From Porticoccaceae bacterium (GTDB lineage Bacteria > Pseudomonadota > Gammaproteobacteria > Pseudomonadales > Porticoccaceae), in NCBI GenBank assembly GCA_002702725.1, contig PABE01000135.1, forward strand, positions 1 to 49,571: DNA of 49,571 nucleotides, read 5' to 3'. The notes under the pieces were generated by a model. It made no database searches, had not been told where the DNA came from, and saw only the letters and a list, made by a program, of their open reading frames with translations. A program made the translations under genes and the position numbers. Numbering within the stretch: the first letter of the stretch is position 1; every line of letters starts with the position of its first letter. Below are positions 2,559 to 13,447 of the stretch, in pieces.

Positions 2559-2720
2559 TTAAACACACCCATGGGATTTCATGCGTTTCTATCTTCCTGT
2601 TTTTCATACAATAAGATCCTCAGCTTGAATTATTCCCACATAAAAAGGTATCCAGCCTCGACAACGGCCCCTACAAAAGGTCACTTTTGCCACAGGCATT
2701 TCAAGGACGAGGTGTTGGCC

Positions 2721-3745
2721 ATGGCAAGATCCCCCTTTCTCAAATCCATCGAGGATTTCATGCATGTGCGGCGCTACAGCCGTCGCACCATTGGTTCCTG
2801 TCTGTACTGGATCAGGCTTTTTATACTGTTCAACGACAAGCAGCACCCTTCGACACTGGGCGATCAACATATCAAACGATTTTTGACGTTCCTGGCGACC
2901 GAGCGGCAGGTGTCGTCCGGCACCCAGGCACTGGCCTTGAGCGCGGTCGTGTTTCTCAAGGTGAGGTTTTTGGGCCAAACCGTGGGGGATTTGAGGGGAT
3001 TCAACCGTTCGCAAAGGCAGCGGAAACTTCCGGTGGTGCTGACCCATGTCGAGGTTGGCGCGTTGCTGGCGACATTGAGCGGGGTTCATTACCTGATGGT
3101 GGCGCTGTTGTATGGCTCGGGTTTGCGGCGTATCGAGTTGGTGCGCTTGCGGGTCAAGGATATCGATTTTGACTATCGACAGGTCAGGGTGATCAGCGGC
3201 AAGGGCGGCAAGCACCGCGCGGTGACGCTGGCGGATGAGTTGCCGGGGCCTTTGCGGGAACAGGTCAGCCGGGTTGAGGCTGTTCTTGCAAGCGACAGGG
3301 AGGTGACGGGATACGCCGGGGTGTGGTTGCCGGACGCCCTCGCCCGCAAGTATCCTTCTGCGCCGCTTGATCCTGGTTGGCATTATCTCTTCCCTGCGTC
3401 CCGTTTGAGCATCGACCCGGCAAGTAACTGCCTGCGACGTCATCATTTCGATGAGAATAACCTGAACAAACTGGTAAGAAAAGCAGCCCGTGGTGCCGGT
3501 ATTCGCAAGGCGGTTTCATGCCACACACTGCGGCACTCCTTTGCCACTCATCTTCTCCAGTCGGGGGCAGACATACGCACTGTGCAGCTGCAACCGGGGC
3601 ACAGTGACGTGAAGACCACTGAGATAACCGCTCCCGGCGTCCTGCCTCACGCGGTACTTGTACGTCCTGTACATCGTATACCCACGTATTGAAACAGGGT
3701 GCCCATGGTGTGCGCAGCCCGCTGAGTAATCTTTTGAAGATATAA
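2721..3745 (+). pseudogene. intI: integron integrase IntI, disrupted by a 50-bp insertion
   Basis: The product is a tyrosine recombinase of the integron type, which normally excises and inserts cassettes at attC and attI. Visible are the SAM-like N-terminal domain, the first catalytic Arg in GSGLRRIEL, the integron-specific patch (DPASNCLRRHH), HTLRHSFATHLL, and GHSDVKTTEI. A 50-bp insertion (3627-3676) then shifts the frame and the ORF ends at 3692. Removing it restores E-I-Y-T-H-V-L and a GVRSPL tail ending at 3745, giving 324 residues, the usual IntI length. The catalytic Tyr codon (3677-3679) is thus out of frame. The usual L-G-H is also P-G-H here. ATG 2721 is preferred over longer starts because homology begins there. 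Confidence 0.85.
3627..3676. other. 50-bp insertion inside intI
   Basis: This segment splits the integrase codons for E-I from the catalytic Y-T-H. It is GC-rich and carries a small hairpin (TGTAC-GTCCT-GTACA). It encodes nothing integrase-like. The text CGCTCCCGGCGTCCTGCC resembles short dispersed repeats that I associate with marine gammaproteobacterial genomes, but I cannot check its copy number here. Confidence 0.7.
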
Positions 3746-7432: not shown

Positions 7433-8197
7433 CTACTTGAGCCAGGCCGCCAGACACACGGCGATGACCATCACCAGCAGGACCCAGCGAAGGACATTCT
7501 GGTCGACGGAAATCGCCACCCTGACCGACAGGCGCACCCCCACCACGGTGCCCAGGGCGAGCATCAGGCCCGGAACCCACAGCACCTGGTCGCGGATCAC
7601 GAACACCACCAGCGCCACACCGCTGAAGATGGCCGTACAGGCGAGTTTCAGGGCATTGGCGCGCACCAGGTCGTAGCGCAGCGCACCGGCCAGCGCCGCG
7701 ATCAGCACGAAGCCCACTGCCGCCTGAACAAAGCCGCCGTAGAGCCCGGCGGCGAACAGGCTGATCCAGCCGATGGGGGAATCCTTCAGCCTCAGGGGCT
7801 CGGTGCCCAGGGGCGGCGCAACGGTGGCGGGGCGCAATACGATCAACACGGCCATGGCAATCATGGTCAGCAACAGCACCGGTTCCAGCACCGTGGCGGG
7901 CAGGTAGGAGGCAATCAGCGCCCCGGCCAGTGAACCGGACACCGTCGGCACCAGGATCGGCACGATGGCGTCCCTGGCCAGCTTGCCGTGGCGGTTAAAG
8001 CTGCGGGTACCTTCGAGGGATTGCAAAAACACGCCGACCCGGTTGGTGGCGTTGGCAATATCGGCGGGCATGCCCAGCAACATCAGGGCCGGCAGGGTAA
8101 GCAGGGAGCCGCCCCCGGCCAGGGCGTTGATAAACCCGGCGAGAACCCCGGACGCCACCAGCAGGGAGCCGGTCAGCCAGGTGATTTGATAGTCCAT
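7433..8197 (-). CDS. TSUP-family (TauE/SafE) membrane permease
   Basis: The 254-residue protein is almost entirely hydrophobic, with seven to eight predicted membrane segments. The family signature GVLAGFINALAGGGSLLTLP lies near the N-terminus and is partly repeated in the second half (AAGLYGGFVQAAVGFVLI). TSUP proteins move sulfite, sulfoacetate and other sulfur or organic anions. The substrate cannot be read from the sequence. It is upstream of the MFS gene on the same strand, and 128 bases downstream of the mtrB-like gene. Confidence 0.88.
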   Translation of the reverse strand: MDYQITWLTGSLLVASGVLAGFINALAGGGSLLTLPALMLLGMPADIANATNRVGVFLQSLEGTRSFNRHGKLARDAIVPILVPTVSGSLAGALIASYLPATVLEPVLLLTMIAMAVLIVLRPATVAPPLGTEPLRLKDSPIGWISLFAAGLYGGFVQAAVGFVLIAALAGALRYDLVRANALKLACTAIFSGVALVVFVIRDQVLWVPGLMLALGTVVGVRLSVRVAISVDQNVLRWVLLVMVIAVCLAAWLK

Positions 8198-8325
8198 GTA
8201 AGGTCTCTTGTGAAAAGGGGCCGGTGGCGCAGTGTGACAACGATTCGATCCCCGGTTGCATTGCCAGGGTCCGCCCCGTTGTTACCTCGCTTTGCCCGCC
8301 TGCGGCCGGAACACCGCAAACCCTA

Positions 8326-10359
8326 TCACAGGCTGTCGAAATCGTGTCGCACCGAAACCATCACCGCATGACCATCGTAGGACGGCATGCCCCAGCCGAA
8401 CCCAAGGGCGGTGAAATCCGCCGCGTCCCAGGCCCAGTCGTCACCCCGGAAACGTTCGAACAGGTAGCGAACGGTAAAACGGAGATCCGGTCTGTACTGC
8501 CAGTTAACTGTGCTCTCAATCCGCTGGGTGTCGACGCCGAACCCCGGCAGGGTATCGGAGGTCCCGCCAACTTCGCCGGTATCGGCATCCGCCAGCCACC
8601 GGCTGCGATAGTCGCTGTCATTGTCGCTGTGGCTGATATCCAGGCTGGCATCCAGTGCCGGGCTGACCTGCCAGCGAAAATTGATGCCAACGGTGCGGCT
8701 ATCGTCGTCAATCCATTGCCGCCAGGGGGCATTGGCGTAGCTCGGGCTGCCCGTCGGATGAAACTCAAGCCCGTTCTGGCTGATTTCAAACGCCTGGTAC
8801 AGGGCATAGGCGCTGACCGCAAGCGCCTTGCGCGGCTGCCAGGAAACATTCAGGGAGACTTCATCGCTGGTGCGGCCCCGCAGCCCGTAGGCGGGGTTGT
8901 CGAAATCGTCGTTAATGCGCCGGTAACTGCCGGCCAGCAGGGTCCGCTCGGACAGCGGCAAATCACCGCTCACCTGATACTGGGTGGAGCGACCGGCCAG
9001 CAGGTATTCCGGCAACGCCTGGGAGGGCGCCGAGATGGATGCCTCACGGGCGTCGGACAGGTCGCTGTCGCGCTCTTCGGCCACTACTTTAAGACGAAGT
9101 GCCAGGGCGCCAAGGTCGGGCAGGCGCAATTCGCTCCACAGTTGCGTTGTGTCCAGGTCGTCCCGGAAGCGGATATCGCTGCGGGTGGTGCGCTCAACCG
9201 CTTCAAACTCCAGCCCTGCCCGGAGTCGCCACTGGCCCGGCAGTCGGTAGCGGGCGTCCGCAGACCAGCGCTGGCGCCGGTGATCGTACAAATGGCTGAA
9301 GCCTGTGGCCGAGATCGGCAGCACATCGGTGCGGTTGTCCCGGTCCCGGTAGTCCCACCGCAAGCGATAACCGAACCGCGCATTTACCTGGGCGCGGTAG
9401 GCCAGACGCAGGTCGGTATCAACCCGGCGGGCGTCGAGGGAGTCGATCAGGGCCGAGCCCGCGGGCATCAGCGGCTCCAGAAATCCGTCGTCCTGCCGGG
9501 CATCGGCGCGACTGATATACCAGGACACCTGCCGCGCCGGGCCAAACCGGTAGTGGCCGTCGAGACTGATGCGGCTGATATCGTTATCGGGGGCGAGATC
9601 CAGGGTTCGCAGGGGCGCGGTGGTGTTGACCGGGTTGGCAAAGGTGAGCGACCGGGCGTGGTTGGTGTACCGGGCGTAGTACCAGCCGGTATTCAAAACC
9701 CACTGCCCACCCTGGTAGGCGAGCTGCAGATCGACGGTGTCCTGGCGCTGATCCACCGGCGCCGGGATCAGCACCGCATCGCCAAACCGCTCACTGGCGC
9801 CGGTAATGCGTGTGCCTTCCTTGTCTTCGCTGGCCAGGGTCGCGGTCAAACGCCACTGCCCCCAGCGGCGCATAAGATCGAGTGAGCCCTGCTGCCGACG
9901 CACTCCGGCATGGCCGACAAAGCCCCGGGCACCCGCAAGTCCGGCATAGTCCGGCGGCAGGGATTGCACAGACCCGTCCCCCGGATAGACAGAGACAAAA
10001 CGCTCACGGGAAATGGCTTCGAATTCCCGCAGATCAAAGCCTATACGGTAGTCTCCCTGGCGGGCCAGATAGCCGCCGGCAAGGTTTTGCGCCAGGTCCG
10101 CGCTGGCGTGAAACCCGCCACTGCGGTAACGGTCATCGCCATCACGCCATTGGTAACCAACTGCACCAAGGGCGAAGGCCCGGTCCGTTTGCAAAAGCTG
10201 CCGGTATTCGCCGAATCGGCCATTGCCGTTTTCCGAGAGGCCGGCACCGAACTCCAGCCAGGTACTGACGTCATCGTCGCCGGCGCTGGCAAGGGAAGGG
10301 GTGGCCGCCAGGCTAACGACCCCACAACCGATCAATGCGCGCATCGTGGACATTGTCAC
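8326..10359 (-). CDS. mtrB: MtrB/PioB-type outer-membrane beta-barrel of an electron conduit
   Basis: The 677-residue protein starts with a signal peptide (about residues 1-26, ending ASA) and then consists of alternating polar/hydrophobic strands rich in Tyr, Trp and Arg, the pattern of a large outer-membrane barrel. Length and position match MtrB/PioB/MtoB (about 700-800 residues), which sheathe a decaheme cytochrome through the outer membrane. The gene starts three bases after the decaheme cytochrome gene, which is the main support for the call. The N-terminal CxxC known from Shewanella MtrB is not seen. It is the last gene of the four-gene operon. The alternative is an unrelated barrel, but adjacency to a decaheme protein makes that unlikely. 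Confidence 0.85.
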   Translation of the reverse strand: MTMSTMRALIGCGVVSLAATPSLASAGDDDVSTWLEFGAGLSENGNGRFGEYRQLLQTDRAFALGAVGYQWRDGDDRYRSGGFHASADLAQNLAGGYLARQGDYRIGFDLREFEAISRERFVSVYPGDGSVQSLPPDYAGLAGARGFVGHAGVRRQQGSLDLMRRWGQWRLTATLASEDKEGTRITGASERFGDAVLIPAPVDQRQDTVDLQLAYQGGQWVLNTGWYYARYTNHARSLTFANPVNTTAPLRTLDLAPDNDISRISLDGHYRFGPARQVSWYISRADARQDDGFLEPLMPAGSALIDSLDARRVDTDLRLAYRAQVNARFGYRLRWDYRDRDNRTDVLPISATGFSHLYDHRRQRWSADARYRLPGQWRLRAGLEFEAVERTTRSDIRFRDDLDTTQLWSELRLPDLGALALRLKVVAEERDSDLSDAREASISAPSQALPEYLLAGRSTQYQVSGDLPLSERTLLAGSYRRINDDFDNPAYGLRGRTSDEVSLNVSWQPRKALAVSAYALYQAFEISQNGLEFHPTGSPSYANAPWRQWIDDDSRTVGINFRWQVSPALDASLDISHSDNDSDYRSRWLADADTGEVGGTSDTLPGFGVDTQRIESTVNWQYRPDLRFTVRYLFERFRGDDWAWDAADFTALGFGWGMPSYDGHAVMVSVRHDFDSL

Positions 10360-10362
10360 CCC

Positions 10363-11229
10363 CTATCGCCGGAAGGTACTGCTGGCCGGCTGGTTACCGC
10401 CGTGCACCTGGCTGTGGCAGTTGGTGCAGGACTGACCGACGATGTTGATATCCCTGCCACCGAGTTGATTGCTGTCATAGAGACGGCCCGGGTGTCGGGA
10501 CGCGATGTGACACTGCTGGCACAGGAACGGCTCCCGGGCCTTGAGCAGGGAGTCATTGACGGATGCATGTGGCAGGTGGCAGTGGCTGCAGTCGTCCTGA
10601 ACGGGTTCGTGTTCGAACAGGAACGGACCGCGTTTCTCGGCGTGGCACTGGTAGCAGGTGTCGTTGAGGGTAGGGCCGGTGAGTCCGCTGAGGGAGTTGC
10701 CACCATGGGGTGCATGGCAGTCAGTGCACTGCACCTGGCCGTCCGCCATCGGGTGATGGGAAAACTTCATTACGGCCATTTTTTCCCGCTGGTGACAATC
10801 GGTACAGACCTCAAACTGGCTTTGTCGCTCCTGCACCGGATCAATGGCACTGTGAATGGCATGGCAGGAGGCACAACCCACCTGAGCCGCACTGTGCTCA
10901 CTGAACGCCCAATGGCTAATCGCCTCACCGGTGTGGCAGGTAAGGCACTTTTCCTCACCGTCACTCTGGCCGCGGGCAAAGCGGATATCCGGGGGCTGGC
11001 CCGGGTTGGTGAGATGGGCCTGGCTGGCGCCGTGGCAATCTGTGCAGCCAACCCCCGCTTGCCCGCTTTGGGGGTCGGCCCCCAGTCCGTGGACCCGGTG
11101 ACTGATGCCCCCCTGGGCGACAGCGCGATGGCAACCGAGGCAGCTGGCATCTGGCCCCTGAGCGAGGGCCGGTTCACCCAGCAGCAGGTAAAGCCCGAAA
11201 AGCGGAATCAGATACCGGAGGGTTTTCAT
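10363..11229 (-). CDS. mtrA: periplasmic decaheme c-type cytochrome, MtrA/PioA/DmsE family
   Basis: The 288-residue protein has a Sec signal peptide (about 1-24, ending ALAQ) and exactly ten CxxCH motifs, at C30, C62, C95, C119, C142, C168, C192, C214, C237 and C268. Many free histidines can serve as distal heme ligands. Ten hemes in under 300 residues with an MtrB-like gene next door defines the MtrA/MtoA/PioA/DmsE group, whose members form a heme wire inside an outer-membrane barrel. Its start overlaps the stop of the b5-like gene by four bases, so translation is coupled. Direction of electron flow (iron oxidation or extracellular reduction) cannot be told from this gene alone. Confidence 0.95.
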   Translation of the reverse strand: MKTLRYLIPLFGLYLLLGEPALAQGPDASCLGCHRAVAQGGISHRVHGLGADPQSGQAGVGCTDCHGASQAHLTNPGQPPDIRFARGQSDGEEKCLTCHTGEAISHWAFSEHSAAQVGCASCHAIHSAIDPVQERQSQFEVCTDCHQREKMAVMKFSHHPMADGQVQCTDCHAPHGGNSLSGLTGPTLNDTCYQCHAEKRGPFLFEHEPVQDDCSHCHLPHASVNDSLLKAREPFLCQQCHIASRHPGRLYDSNQLGGRDINIVGQSCTNCHSQVHGGNQPASSTFRR

Positions 11230-11588
11230 GGTGCCGATTCAGCCAGGACACCGATCTGGAATTCCTCGAGCATAGCCCAGGCGGTCGAGCTGTGGTCGCG
11301 TCCATAGCCCTTGGTGCGCATGCCTTCGGTGGCCTCCTTGCCGCACCAGGGCAACAGCACGCTGGGCGGGGTGGGATGCCTGGCCACATAGGTACTGATG
11401 TCGTAGACCTTGCCTTCGATGACCAGCCAGCAATCGTCCTCGGCGGCATGGGCGGCAACCTCTTCGAGGCTGTAGCCGGGGGTTGCCGGCGTCGCCCCCT
11501 TTTCGCCGGTCGCCAGGACATTGACCGCCAGCAGGGTGGCAATACAGGACCAGAACGCGATAAAGGCCGAATAGCAGAATTTTTTCAT
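11226..11588 (-). CDS. small exported or membrane-anchored cytochrome b5-like protein
   Basis: This 120-residue protein has an N-terminal hydrophobic segment (about 7-27), either a signal peptide or an anchor. A cytochrome b5 fold follows: YSLEEVAAH, then DDCWLVIEGKVYDISTYVARHP, then GMRTKGYGRDHSS and EEFQIG. H71 and H99 are in the places of the two heme ligands. The usual HPGG is HPTPP here. The gene overlaps both neighbours by ATGA, between the flavocytochrome and the decaheme cytochrome, so it may carry electrons between them in the periplasm. That role is inferred from order and location. Confidence 0.85.
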   Translation of the reverse strand: MKKFCYSAFIAFWSCIATLLAVNVLATGEKGATPATPGYSLEEVAAHAAEDDCWLVIEGKVYDISTYVARHPTPPSVLLPWCGKEATEGMRTKGYGRDHSSTAWAMLEEFQIGVLAESAP

Positions 11589-12883
11589 AGCAGGTTGAAC
11601 TCCTCGGTGTGAAGCCGCCGTCGGGATACCCCGTTCGCCAGCGCCAGATCACGGGCCAATTGCAGTAGCGGTCCGGGACCACAGATATAGACCTCGCGAC
11701 TGGCGATGTCCCGACAGTGGTAGCGCAGGAAGTCGGAGGACAAGGGCCCGTGTTTATAAAAGTAATGCACAGTTAAGTTGAACCCGGGCAGTGTTGCATT
11801 GAGTTGGCGCAACTCCTCCACGAATAGGGCCCTGGCTTCGTCCTGAATACAGTAAATCAAACCGATGTCCACCGCCTCGCCACGGCCGGCAAGCCAGCGG
11901 ACGCGGCCCAGAAAGGGTGTAATACCGATACCGCCGGCAATCCACAGCTCCCGGCCCGATGACTTGGGAAAAAAGTCACCGTAGGGCCCGGTGAGAGCCA
12001 CCGCCGTGCCCGGCACCACCGACTGCAGGGCTCGACTGGCGTCACCCAGGTCCTTGACGGCCACCCGCAACACCGCTTCATCCGGGGACGACGACAATGT
12101 GTACGGATGTTCCTCGCCCCTGCCGTGCAGATTCCGTTGCTGGTGGCACAGGTAGACGAACTGGCCCGCCCGATAGGCCATTGGTCTGGCCAACGCTTCC
12201 AGTGACAGCTCCACGACATTGGGCGCAACCCTGTGAACAACACTCACCCGATAGGGGTAGCGATGCCGCCATCGCGCCAGAATCAATCCGTAGACCAACG
12301 CCGCCAACGCGAGGGTGGCCAGTGTCCACCACAACCACTGGCTGTAGGGGGATTCAATGGAGCGGGAAAGCGCAAGGGTATGGACCAGACCAAAAACCGC
12401 GGTCACCGCCGAAAGCCTGTGAATGGACTTCCATCGCTGGTACTTCGGTGGACCGAAAAAGCCGAGGCTCGGCGCCATAAACACCATCATTGAGACCAGC
12501 GCGATCCAGCCCAGCCACACCGCCCCTCCGCCGTCCGGCGGGAACAACACACCGATCGCCACGGACAGCGACAGTGGCACGGCGGCCATGGCCAGCAGCA
12601 AGGGGTGGACGAGCAGGAGGAGAAAAGCGCCGCAACCGAGCAAATGGTGGGTATTCCACAGTTTTGTCAGCCCTCCGAACCAGCGATCAACACCGGGCAG
12701 GCGAAAACTCACCGCCGCCGCAACCAGTAACATGCCAAATCCCGCAATGCCCGCGATTCGGCCGAGAAAGTTGAGCCAGTCGCCGGGGGCGCTCGATGCC
12801 GGCGGAGCGTGAAAAGCTGCCACCACCGCGGGTGCAAGGGCGACGAGCCAGAGGAGTGCGTGCGCCAGGGCTTTATTATTCAT
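11585..12883 (-). CDS. ferric-reductase/NADPH-oxidase-like transmembrane flavocytochrome
   Basis: The 432-residue protein has six to seven N-terminal membrane helices with two His pairs, H80/H93 and H155/H168. Each pair is 13 residues apart, the pattern that stacks two b hemes across the membrane in FRE/NOX enzymes. The C-terminal half is an FNR-type reductase with HPYTLSS (259-265) for FAD, GGIGITPF (317-324) and CGPGP (401-405) for NAD(P)H. No 2Fe-2S domain follows. It should pass electrons from cytosolic NAD(P)H to the periplasmic face. It is first in the operon with the b5-like, decaheme and barrel genes. ATG 12883 is preferred to an in-frame upstream start at 12931 because the hydrophobic N-terminus begins there. 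Confidence 0.88.
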   Translation of the reverse strand: MNNKALAHALLWLVALAPAVVAAFHAPPASSAPGDWLNFLGRIAGIAGFGMLLVAAAVSFRLPGVDRWFGGLTKLWNTHHLLGCGAFLLLLVHPLLLAMAAVPLSLSVAIGVLFPPDGGGAVWLGWIALVSMMVFMAPSLGFFGPPKYQRWKSIHRLSAVTAVFGLVHTLALSRSIESPYSQWLWWTLATLALAALVYGLILARWRHRYPYRVSVVHRVAPNVVELSLEALARPMAYRAGQFVYLCHQQRNLHGRGEEHPYTLSSSPDEAVLRVAVKDLGDASRALQSVVPGTAVALTGPYGDFFPKSSGRELWIAGGIGITPFLGRVRWLAGRGEAVDIGLIYCIQDEARALFVEELRQLNATLPGFNLTVHYFYKHGPLSSDFLRYHCRDIASREVYICGPGPLLQLARDLALANGVSRRRLHTEEFNLL

Positions 12884-12913
12884 CAATCCGCCATCCTGCT
12901 TCCTTGGGTGCCG

Positions 12914-12944
12914 TTGAAACGGTTTTATCATTCACGATTATAAT
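12914..12944 (+). promoter_or_regulatory. promoter in the divergent PA2779-like / electron-conduit region
   Basis: TTGAAA (12914-12919) and TATAAT (12939-12944) face right, with a long 19-base spacer (18 if TGAAAC is used). The -10 lies in the palindrome ATTATAAT (12937-12944), so the left-facing operon could use the same bases as its own -10, though no good -35 is seen on that side. Confidence 0.45.
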
Positions 12945-13057
12945 GACTTGCGTTCAGGATTGTGACCTGCTGCGGATTTCTCCGCCGGTTTTATGGTCTA
13001 CTGTAGTGAATGTTAACAGCTGTTTCATCAACCACCTGCTCGACAAGGAGAACACCC

Positions 13058-13447
13058 ATGTCCCACGCCTTGAAAAAACGCGCCCGTATTATCGCCTACG
13101 CGATGATGGCTTTTTTCTCCCTGGCAACCGTACAGATGCCTGCCCACGCTGCGCTATTAAGTACAGATGCACTGGTATCCAAGGCGGAGCTTCAGGATCA
13201 ACGGGACGCCCTGACCCAACAATTGCTGAGAGACGATGTCAAAAAGGAACTGCTGTCCCTTGGCGTTGATCCCGCCGACGTGGAAACCCGCATCAACAGC
13301 ATGACCGCCAGCGAAATCAGCCAGGTACAGGGTCATCTGGCTAACCTGCCCGCCGGCGGCAGCGCCCTCGGAACCGTGGCGCTGGTGCTGGTCATTCTGA
13401 TCCTGCTGGAGATTGCCGGCGTTATCGATATCTTCCCCAAACTCTGA
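13058..13447 (+). CDS. PA2779-like small secreted/membrane protein
   Basis: This 129-residue protein starts with a basic N-terminus and a signal-like hydrophobic stretch (IIAYAMMAFFSLATVQMPAHA). A polar helical middle follows (QRDALTQQLLRDDVKKELLSLGVDPADVETRI). The C-terminus is a hydrophobic helix (TVALVLVILILLEIAGV) ending IDIFPKL. This layout is that of the PA2779 family, which is usually next to a PA2778-type peptidase, as here. Function is not established. ATG 13058 follows AAGGAG at ideal spacing, so longer frames are rejected. Confidence 0.8.
   Translation: MSHALKKRARIIAYAMMAFFSLATVQMPAHAALLSTDALVSKAELQDQRDALTQQLLRDDVKKELLSLGVDPADVETRINSMTASEISQVQGHLANLPAGGSALGTVALVLVILILLEIAGVIDIFPKL

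Follow-up and report, generated by a model that had tools for sequence, protein, structure and literature searches.

The window analysed here is a stretch of 49,571 nucleotides from a Porticoccaceae bacterium (assembly GCA_002702725.1, contig PABE01000135.1, positions 1 to 49,571). It is part of contig C11 of genome G000 (3.56 Mb, 91% complete) and is a chromosome segment carrying dnaA, dnaN, gyrB, atp and par genes, which were identified by visual inspection of their translations. On its minus strand lies a compact operon that joins a flavocytochrome of the NOX/FRE type and a cytochrome b5, referred to below as FRE and b5, to the two components of an MtrAB-type outer-membrane conduit. The features of the operon, in the direction of transcription, are as follows.

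12937..12966, minus strand: sigma-70-like promoter match upstream of FRE, 10/12 bases, with TATAAT (consensus scan)
11585..12883, minus strand: FRE, NOX/FRE-type flavocytochrome, 432 residues (Pfam, SpNOX match, AlphaFold2 model, invariant histidines)
11226..11588, minus strand: b5, cytochrome b5 with an N-terminal helix, 120 residues (PF00173, match to 1cxy, invariant histidines, AlphaFold2 model)
10363..11229, minus strand: MtrA-like periplasmic decaheme c-type cytochrome, 288 residues (TIGR03508, 6r2q chain A, ten CxxCH motifs)
8326..10359, minus strand: MtrB/PioB-type outer-membrane barrel, 677 residues, GTG start (PF11854)

A preliminary description of this DNA, made from the letters alone, had proposed four tightly coupled genes, and the junctions read from the DNA agree with it: FRE and b5 share an ATGA overlap, b5 and mtrA share another, and the mtrA stop codon is separated from the GTG of mtrB by three bases. 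FRE and b5 are the only genes of the operon besides those for MtrA and MtrB. The promoter scan of positions 8150-13100 returned two matches where 1.1 were expected by chance, and because of the position of the listed match the ATG at 12883 is favoured as the start of FRE over the ATG at 12931.

The first protein, FRE, matches the Pfam families Ferric_reduct (PF01794, 5.8e-10, 39.7 bits against a cut-off of 28), FAD_binding_8 (PF08022, 1.3e-07) and NAD_binding_1 (PF00175, 2.2e-07), the latter two also above their cut-offs. Six transmembrane helices carry two b-heme sites, H79/H93 and H155/H168, with the histidine pairs on helices 3 and 5, and all four histidines are invariant in 20/20 aligned proteins. 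The alignment also places an HPYT motif of the HPxTxS type for binding of flavin adenine dinucleotide (FAD) and the GGxGxTP and CGP motifs for NAD(P)H, most letters of which are invariant, as well as a conserved aromatic residue, F429, near the C-terminus. The nearest solved sequence is SpNOX (8qta, 86 bits). The AlphaFold2 model of FRE has a mean predicted local distance difference test score (pLDDT) of 90.6 and can be superimposed on SpNOX 8qt6 over 392 residues (Z 37.8, root mean square deviation 2.6), so that the fold is shared over the whole length. By its domains, motifs and predicted fold, FRE is thus classed as an NAD(P)H-type NOX/FRE flavocytochrome, in line with the bis-heme flavoprotein of the preliminary description. 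The loops expected to lie inside have 3, 3 and 4 lysine and arginine residues and the short N-terminus, on the same side, has 1, against 0, 0 and 1 in the outside loops, which by the positive-inside rule would put the flavin and NAD side in the cytosol. SpNOX itself takes NADH or NADPH, as stated in the accessible part of PMC11031084; according to what is available of PMC5676040, it makes superoxide, its outer heme is accessible to periplasmic partners and it reduces cytochrome c directly.

The second protein is a cytochrome b5 by its match to PF00173 (2.3e-20, 72.9 bits, over the cut-off), and its heme ligands H71 and H99 are invariant in 16/16 aligned proteins. Its closest solved match is 1cxy, a chain named cytochrome b5 (9.5e-26, 93.9 bits), which we take to be the soluble cytochrome b558 of Ectothiorhodospira vacuolata. 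That protein comprises 90 residues without an anchor helix, whereas the b5 of the window carries an N-terminal helix, modelled at residues 2-26 (25 residues; mean pLDDT of the model 88.3). The helix is conserved among relatives, with an AFW core in the alignment, and inspection by eye revealed no consistent cleavage site across their N-termini. Since a single N-terminal helix is conserved without such a site, b5 is read as probably membrane-anchored with its heme domain facing the periplasm. The preliminary description had it as an exported b5-like protein; the b5 assignment stands, and an anchored, periplasm-facing protein fits better than a plainly exported one.

The ten-CxxCH cytochrome and the large barrel named in the same description were both recovered. 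In MtrA ten CxxCH motifs were counted, and the protein scores 250.8 bits against TIGR03508, the DmsE family (cut-off 192.2). It matches chain A of 6r2q (5.5e-64), a record whose molecule name is misleading and which we take to be the MtrCAB structure, chain A being presumably its MtrA. The barrel matches PF11854 (MtrB_PioB; 5.4e-83, 280.1 bits against a cut-off of 23) over profile positions 8-635 of 635. Its score of 213.1 bits against the subfamily model TIGR03509 lies under the cut-off of 240.05, and for this reason it is assigned to the Pfam family only.

The operon is real and conserved. The order FRE-b5-MtrA-MtrB is found in three genomes, namely that of the window, L013 (G001, of the same genus) and L014 (G078, of another family), so it is neither unique to this genome nor, given its recurrence, a product of chance. 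The proteins of the operon are 54-69% identical to their counterparts in L013 and L014, and FRE and b5 overlap by 4 bases in the genomes sharing this gene order. G091, L019 and L020 have a second arrangement, MtrA-MtrB-FRE-b5, and in L017 and in G614, the latter from outside the order, the two gene pairs are convergent; altogether FRE-b5 adjoins MtrAB in eight genomes and three arrangements. In the MtrA tree the proteins of the window, L013 and L014 form one clade, starred in the tree, and the other five linked MtrA proteins fall in another. A single MtrA clade uniting the window, L013 and L014 with G091, L019, L020 and L017 is rejected (approximately unbiased test, p-AU 2.6e-04). The closest MtrA relatives of the window's type are L131 and L132; the parts of these loci that were read contain no FRE-b5, and no b5 match was found in their genomes, G115 and G052. 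In the tree of FRE proteins, those from seven linked genomes share a clade of ten (98/99) with those of L015, L016 and L018, none of which was seen beside MtrAB; the eighth, G614, lies outside. A single FRE clade for the eight is likewise rejected (p-AU 7.6e-05), with 3 label changes in a count that leaves out L016, whose contig ends just after b5, and scores other short contigs as unlinked. Duplicate copies of one locus were left out of the trees, the incomplete L119 out of the MtrA trees and the long-branched L054 out of the second FRE tree. Two MtrA lineages together with the rejection of one FRE clade therefore call for a second coupling or at least one change of partner; as far as these trees can be trusted, FRE-b5 has been coupled to MtrAB, or has changed its MtrAB partner, more than once, and is not one inherited accident.

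The pair and the barrel also occur together across the order. Among 293 genomes, 4 hold both, 4 the pair only, 16 MtrB only and 269 neither (one-sided p 0.00094, or 0.0070 without the genome of the window); these p values are optimistic because kinship leaves about four to six independent linked cases. The eight pair genomes in this count leave out G063, with a b5 match of 38% over 76 residues and no FRE in the short L012, and the 20 genomes with full-length MtrB leave out fragments below 30 bits, 34/293 genomes lying over the Pfam cut-off.

The usual partners of the conduit are distributed the other way. PF03264, the CymA/NapC family, is present in 1/8 linked genomes against 14/17 genomes of the order with a full-length but unlinked MtrB (p 0.0017), and MtrC, as TIGR03507 over its cut-off, in 0/8 against 9/17 (p 0.022). 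Neither model has a match in G000 (91% complete), and TIGR03507 has none over its cut-off in the seven other linked genomes. Where FRE-b5 stands apart from a CymA-MtrCAB cluster, as in G296, G297 and G299, PF03264 and MtrC are each present in 3/3. Kinship among the linked genomes makes these two p values optimistic as well, but with PF03264 as the quinol input that was searched for, this distribution agrees with a replacement of the quinol input by FRE-b5. The preliminary description had suggested a ferric-reductase-like enzyme as the inner-membrane step, and that suggestion gains support from the two MtrAB lineages, the conserved gene order, the rarity of CymA and the lack of MtrC.

What that description omitted is that FRE-b5 is a pair in its own right, which mostly stands without MtrAB. 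Loci of b5, seeded by short peptide patterns in one genome per species over 84,980 species, number at least 45. In 44/45 of them the gene immediately upstream, on the same strand, encodes FRE, and the 45th starts at the first base of its contig. MtrAB adjoins the pair in five (L013, L014, L017, L019 and L020). The records include Haliea, Kineobactrum, Halomonas/Vreelandella, Rhodopseudomonas, Accumulibacter, Dechloromonas, Nitrotoga, Sideroxyarcus and Trinickia, together with one member each of the Elusimicrobia and Silvanigrellales. A full-length MtrB is encoded somewhere in 15/36 carrier genomes searched (16/36 over the Pfam cut-off), these 36 being a subset of the genomes behind the 45 loci that does not include that of L040. 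Since most pairs were not seen beside MtrAB and the remaining 21/36 genomes have no full-length MtrB, other acceptors for b5 must exist. One kind may be visible in L154, L155, L156, L157, L135 and L026, where b5 is extended at its C-terminus and the extension carries an SGAT motif: in L155, b5 and flavin mononucleotide (FMN) binding domains (FMN_bind, PF04205, 6.7e-19) are joined in one protein of 638 residues, a fusion that puts a different extracytoplasmic carrier in the place taken elsewhere by MtrAB. L135, scanned by Pfam along with L155 among the extended proteins, gave no FMN_bind match. With FMN domains following b5 in some bacteria and MtrAB next to it in others, the module has the look to be expected of a plug-in exporter. 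That FRE-b5 is such a general NAD(P)H-driven exporter, with its outer end swapped in evolution between no recognised neighbour, as in most bacteria, FMN domains and MtrAB, and that with MtrAB it would constitute the first quinone-independent route from NAD(P)H to the surface, seems to us an evenly balanced proposition.

A further observation concerns a small, conserved, exported-looking protein in 27/56 FRE-b5 loci (L022-L057, for example L023:2473-2787). It is encoded upstream of FRE within 400 nucleotides in 27/27 and in none of the loci of the window's branch, had no Pfam match in the one member scanned, and seems to form a third part of the cassette in those loci. Genes resembling an ATP synthase operon, recognised by eye, lie near b5 in the Accumulibacter/Azonexaceae loci L023, L030, L041, L046, L048 and L050.

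Good comparative evidence, drawn from sequences, suggests that the operon of the window is an MtrAB-type conduit with a new type of input. We propose, with a probability of about 0.64, that its four genes form one outward path across the envelope, from NAD(P)H to the surface, in which the quinone pool is bypassed. In FRE, FAD would accept hydride from NAD(P)H in the cytosol, and single electrons would then cross the inner membrane over the two b hemes; the anchored periplasmic b5 would accept them from the outer b heme and reduce the decaheme MtrA at its inner end. MtrA would span the outer membrane inside the MtrB barrel and discharge to an extracellular acceptor. Candidate acceptors are soluble or mineral Fe(III) or Mn(IV), humics, flavins and possibly an electrode. 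FRE-b5 would stand in for the quinol-dependent CymA input, and operation without the quinone pool would therefore be possible. Electrons would leave down the membrane potential without proton pumping, for which reason a redox-balancing or metal-reducing valve seems likelier than an energy-conserving respiration. Enzymes of the FRE type carry electrons outward from NAD(P)H. The NAD(P)+/NAD(P)H couple lies near -0.32 V and the cytosol is negative. Outward flow is favoured because it runs downhill from about -0.32 V and along the membrane potential, and inward flow would be uphill on both counts.

A number of points weigh against this outward path. Electron flow through the operon is inferred from comparison of sequences. 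No MtrAB is seen beside FRE-b5 in 40/45 loci, 16 of those 40 being short on one side, and the carrier genomes with no full-length MtrB at all are in the majority. In the class-wide sample of 369 genomes, where 5 strong b5 matches were counted and the weak ones of G685 and G419 left out, one genome (G614) has both pair and barrel once the genome of the window is removed (p 0.26). The eight linked genomes include kin, three belonging to one MtrA clade and L019 and L020 being nearly identical, and the rejection of a single FRE clade depends on G614, with its long branch, and on L015/L018. As to the inputs, two linked genomes, G298 and G301, have weak matches to the MtrC model under its cut-off, and the linked G091 encodes a NapC-family protein on another contig.

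Two further points weigh against the outward path and also bear on the possibility that the conduit is fed from the quinone pool by another periplasmic carrier and that FRE-b5 merely shares the transcript. Contig C123 of G000 (L002) encodes a second multiheme protein whose neighbour is a BFD [2Fe-2S] membrane protein containing hydrophobic stretches; together they might provide another way into the periplasm and could also feed MtrA. Three MtrB genomes of the order that are not linked, G284, G052 and G106, also have no PF03264, other quinol inputs having not been searched for. We nevertheless regard such a carrier as very improbable, given that PF03264 was not found in 7/8 linked genomes and that FRE-b5 is linked to two MtrAB lineages. 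Another reading takes FRE-b5 as a periplasmic reductase of Fe(III), Cu(II) or another metal or oxidant, and the MtrAB neighbourhood as a shared island of redox and metal genes. It draws on the majority of pairs not seen beside MtrAB, on a copper-type P-ATPase near 5/56 FRE-b5 loci and on an arsenite-permease homologue, recognised by eye, near 10/56, each against 0/30 control loci (29 with MtrB genes and one, L153, the flank of a linked locus). Against it, the excess of copper ATPases is slight, with none in the stretch of the window, every arsenite-permease case belongs to the other main branch of the FRE tree, and the overlapping genes, the two MtrAB lineages, the rarity of the CymA family and the lack of MtrC are left unexplained, so that this reading is unlikely, though worth keeping in mind. 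Copper neighbourhood was also considered as a key to the pair's function; 5/56 against 0/30 is not convincing.

FRE might instead be a true NADPH oxidase making periplasmic superoxide, with b5 tuning or scavenging and MtrAB either separate or exporting from carriers reduced by superoxide. Its closest solved relative by sequence and fold is indeed the superoxide-making SpNOX. The same enzyme reduces cytochrome c directly (both points from the accessible portion of PMC5676040); moreover, b5, an electron-transfer protein, has FRE directly upstream in 44/45 loci, and the FMN domains fused to the b5 of L155 suggest a relay and not oxygen chemistry, which together make superoxide production improbable as the role of the operon. 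The preliminary description had also allowed the reverse direction, and here it finds no support. An inward path would lead from extracellular Fe(II), Mn(II) or a cathode through MtrAB, b5 and FRE to NAD(P)+, in the manner of PioAB and MtoAB, homologues that are proposed to run inward (PMC5566968, available part), and one carrier of the pair, L015, is a metagenome-assembled genome whose record is named Biocath. On textbook reasoning such a path would have to climb in redox potential and also work against the membrane potential, with no coupling seen; the L015 pair is not beside MtrAB in its stretch, and that genome has a separate MtrCAB with a CymA-family protein. Inward, iron-oxidising flow was therefore set aside on energetic grounds as hardly credible. 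On balance the interpretation given in the preliminary description is partly supported.

The outward path has elements in common with several known systems. Shewanella MtrCAB, like MtoAB and PioAB, shares with the operon the conduit of a decaheme cytochrome in an MtrB/PioB barrel; it differs from the genome of the window, where neither MtrC nor a CymA-family protein was detected and the input encoded in the same operon is an NAD(P)H flavocytochrome with b5. The PioC high-potential iron-sulfur protein or MtoD cytochrome c partner of PioAB and MtoAB is absent from the operon, the rest of the genome not having been searched for it. SpNOX and the eukaryotic NOX and FRE enzymes have the same fusion of a ferric-reductase transmembrane domain to an FAD/NAD(P)H domain, the same two b-heme sites and the same whole fold, whereas the FRE of the window has a constant b5 neighbour and is proposed to deliver electrons to a protein relay instead of O2 or free Fe(III). 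In MsrQ-like flavinylated systems, as described in the available text of PMC8238504, a PF01794 membrane protein, often with an NAD-binding domain, passes cytosolic electrons to an extracytosolic carrier, as would be the case here. The carrier there is an FMN domain flavinylated by ApbE, one of the flavinylated partners of PF01794 proteins described as extracytosolic electron carriers, whereas here it would be a b5 without an FMN domain, followed by MtrAB; Pfam found neither an FMN-binding domain nor ApbE in the operon. Bacteria of the same order have MtrAB in the Group 6 (Halieaceae) mtrCAB clusters of Baker et al. 2022, and clusters seen here in which MtrAB is accompanied by a 4-heme, a 9-heme and a large 10-heme protein match that description; Group 6 clusters, however, have MtrC and an inner-membrane tetraheme protein, and no flavocytochrome or b5 is named for them in the accessible part of that paper (PMC8805035). 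A DmsEFAB-type extracellular reductase was considered and rejected, as there is no molybdopterin reductase gene among the immediate neighbours of the operon.

Published surveys name other inputs. The mtrCAB survey lists CymA, NetBCD and MtoC, and the terms FAD, flavoprotein and 'cytochrome b' do not occur in its available text (PMC8805035); a survey of inner-membrane components names CymA, CbcL/MtoC/MtrH and ImcH, and 'NADH' does not occur in the portion at hand (PMC6295460). Ferric-reductase-like histidine motifs appear in the available part of PMC5566968 only for inner-membrane proteins of other porin-cytochrome systems, which are possibly active on quinones, and a Methylobacter MtrAB cluster is described with monoheme partners (PMC13322032, in part). 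The accessible portions of PMC7096707, PMC13390432 and PMC3591440 hold nothing on a flavocytochrome or b5 joined to MtrAB. The preliminary description knew of no system of this composition, and likewise no NOX/FRE flavocytochrome and b5 joined to MtrAB was found in the openly licensed literature, as judged from titles and abstracts among the matches listed.

If NAD(P)H does feed the conduit directly, its energetics would change, since no quinone would take part and membrane potential would be lost rather than gained, and the use of MtrAB by bacteria without a detected CymA-family protein or MtrC would be explained. The four genes would then offer a compact part with which NAD(P)H pools could be connected to electrodes, and bacterial NOX-like enzymes would acquire a proposed role beyond superoxide production.

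Control of these operons by a shared Fur, FNR, CueR or ArcA regulator was considered and dropped. Twelve upstream stretches were scanned against simple shuffles without correction for multiple testing, and before the operon of the window nothing rose above chance. Elsewhere in this uncorrected scan, FNR-like sites of 9/10 bases precede mtrA in L118 and L019 and FRE in L036, and Fur-like sites lie upstream in L020 (13/19) and L135 (12/19). By Pfam and NCBIfam scans, the immediate neighbours of the operon are TauE, MFS, Lrp-type regulator, PA2779/PA2778-family and sulfatase genes. Farther off in the window, an integron integrase is encoded at 2571-3692 on the plus strand (TIGR02249, 378.6 bits, cut-off 265), the match stopping at residue 353/373. 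It borders a low-GC stretch (42% GC) that holds two open reading frames without an NCBIfam family, and an open reading frame at 1771-2475 on the minus strand is flanked by an imperfect inverted repeat with 24-nucleotide arms, as a gene cassette might show.

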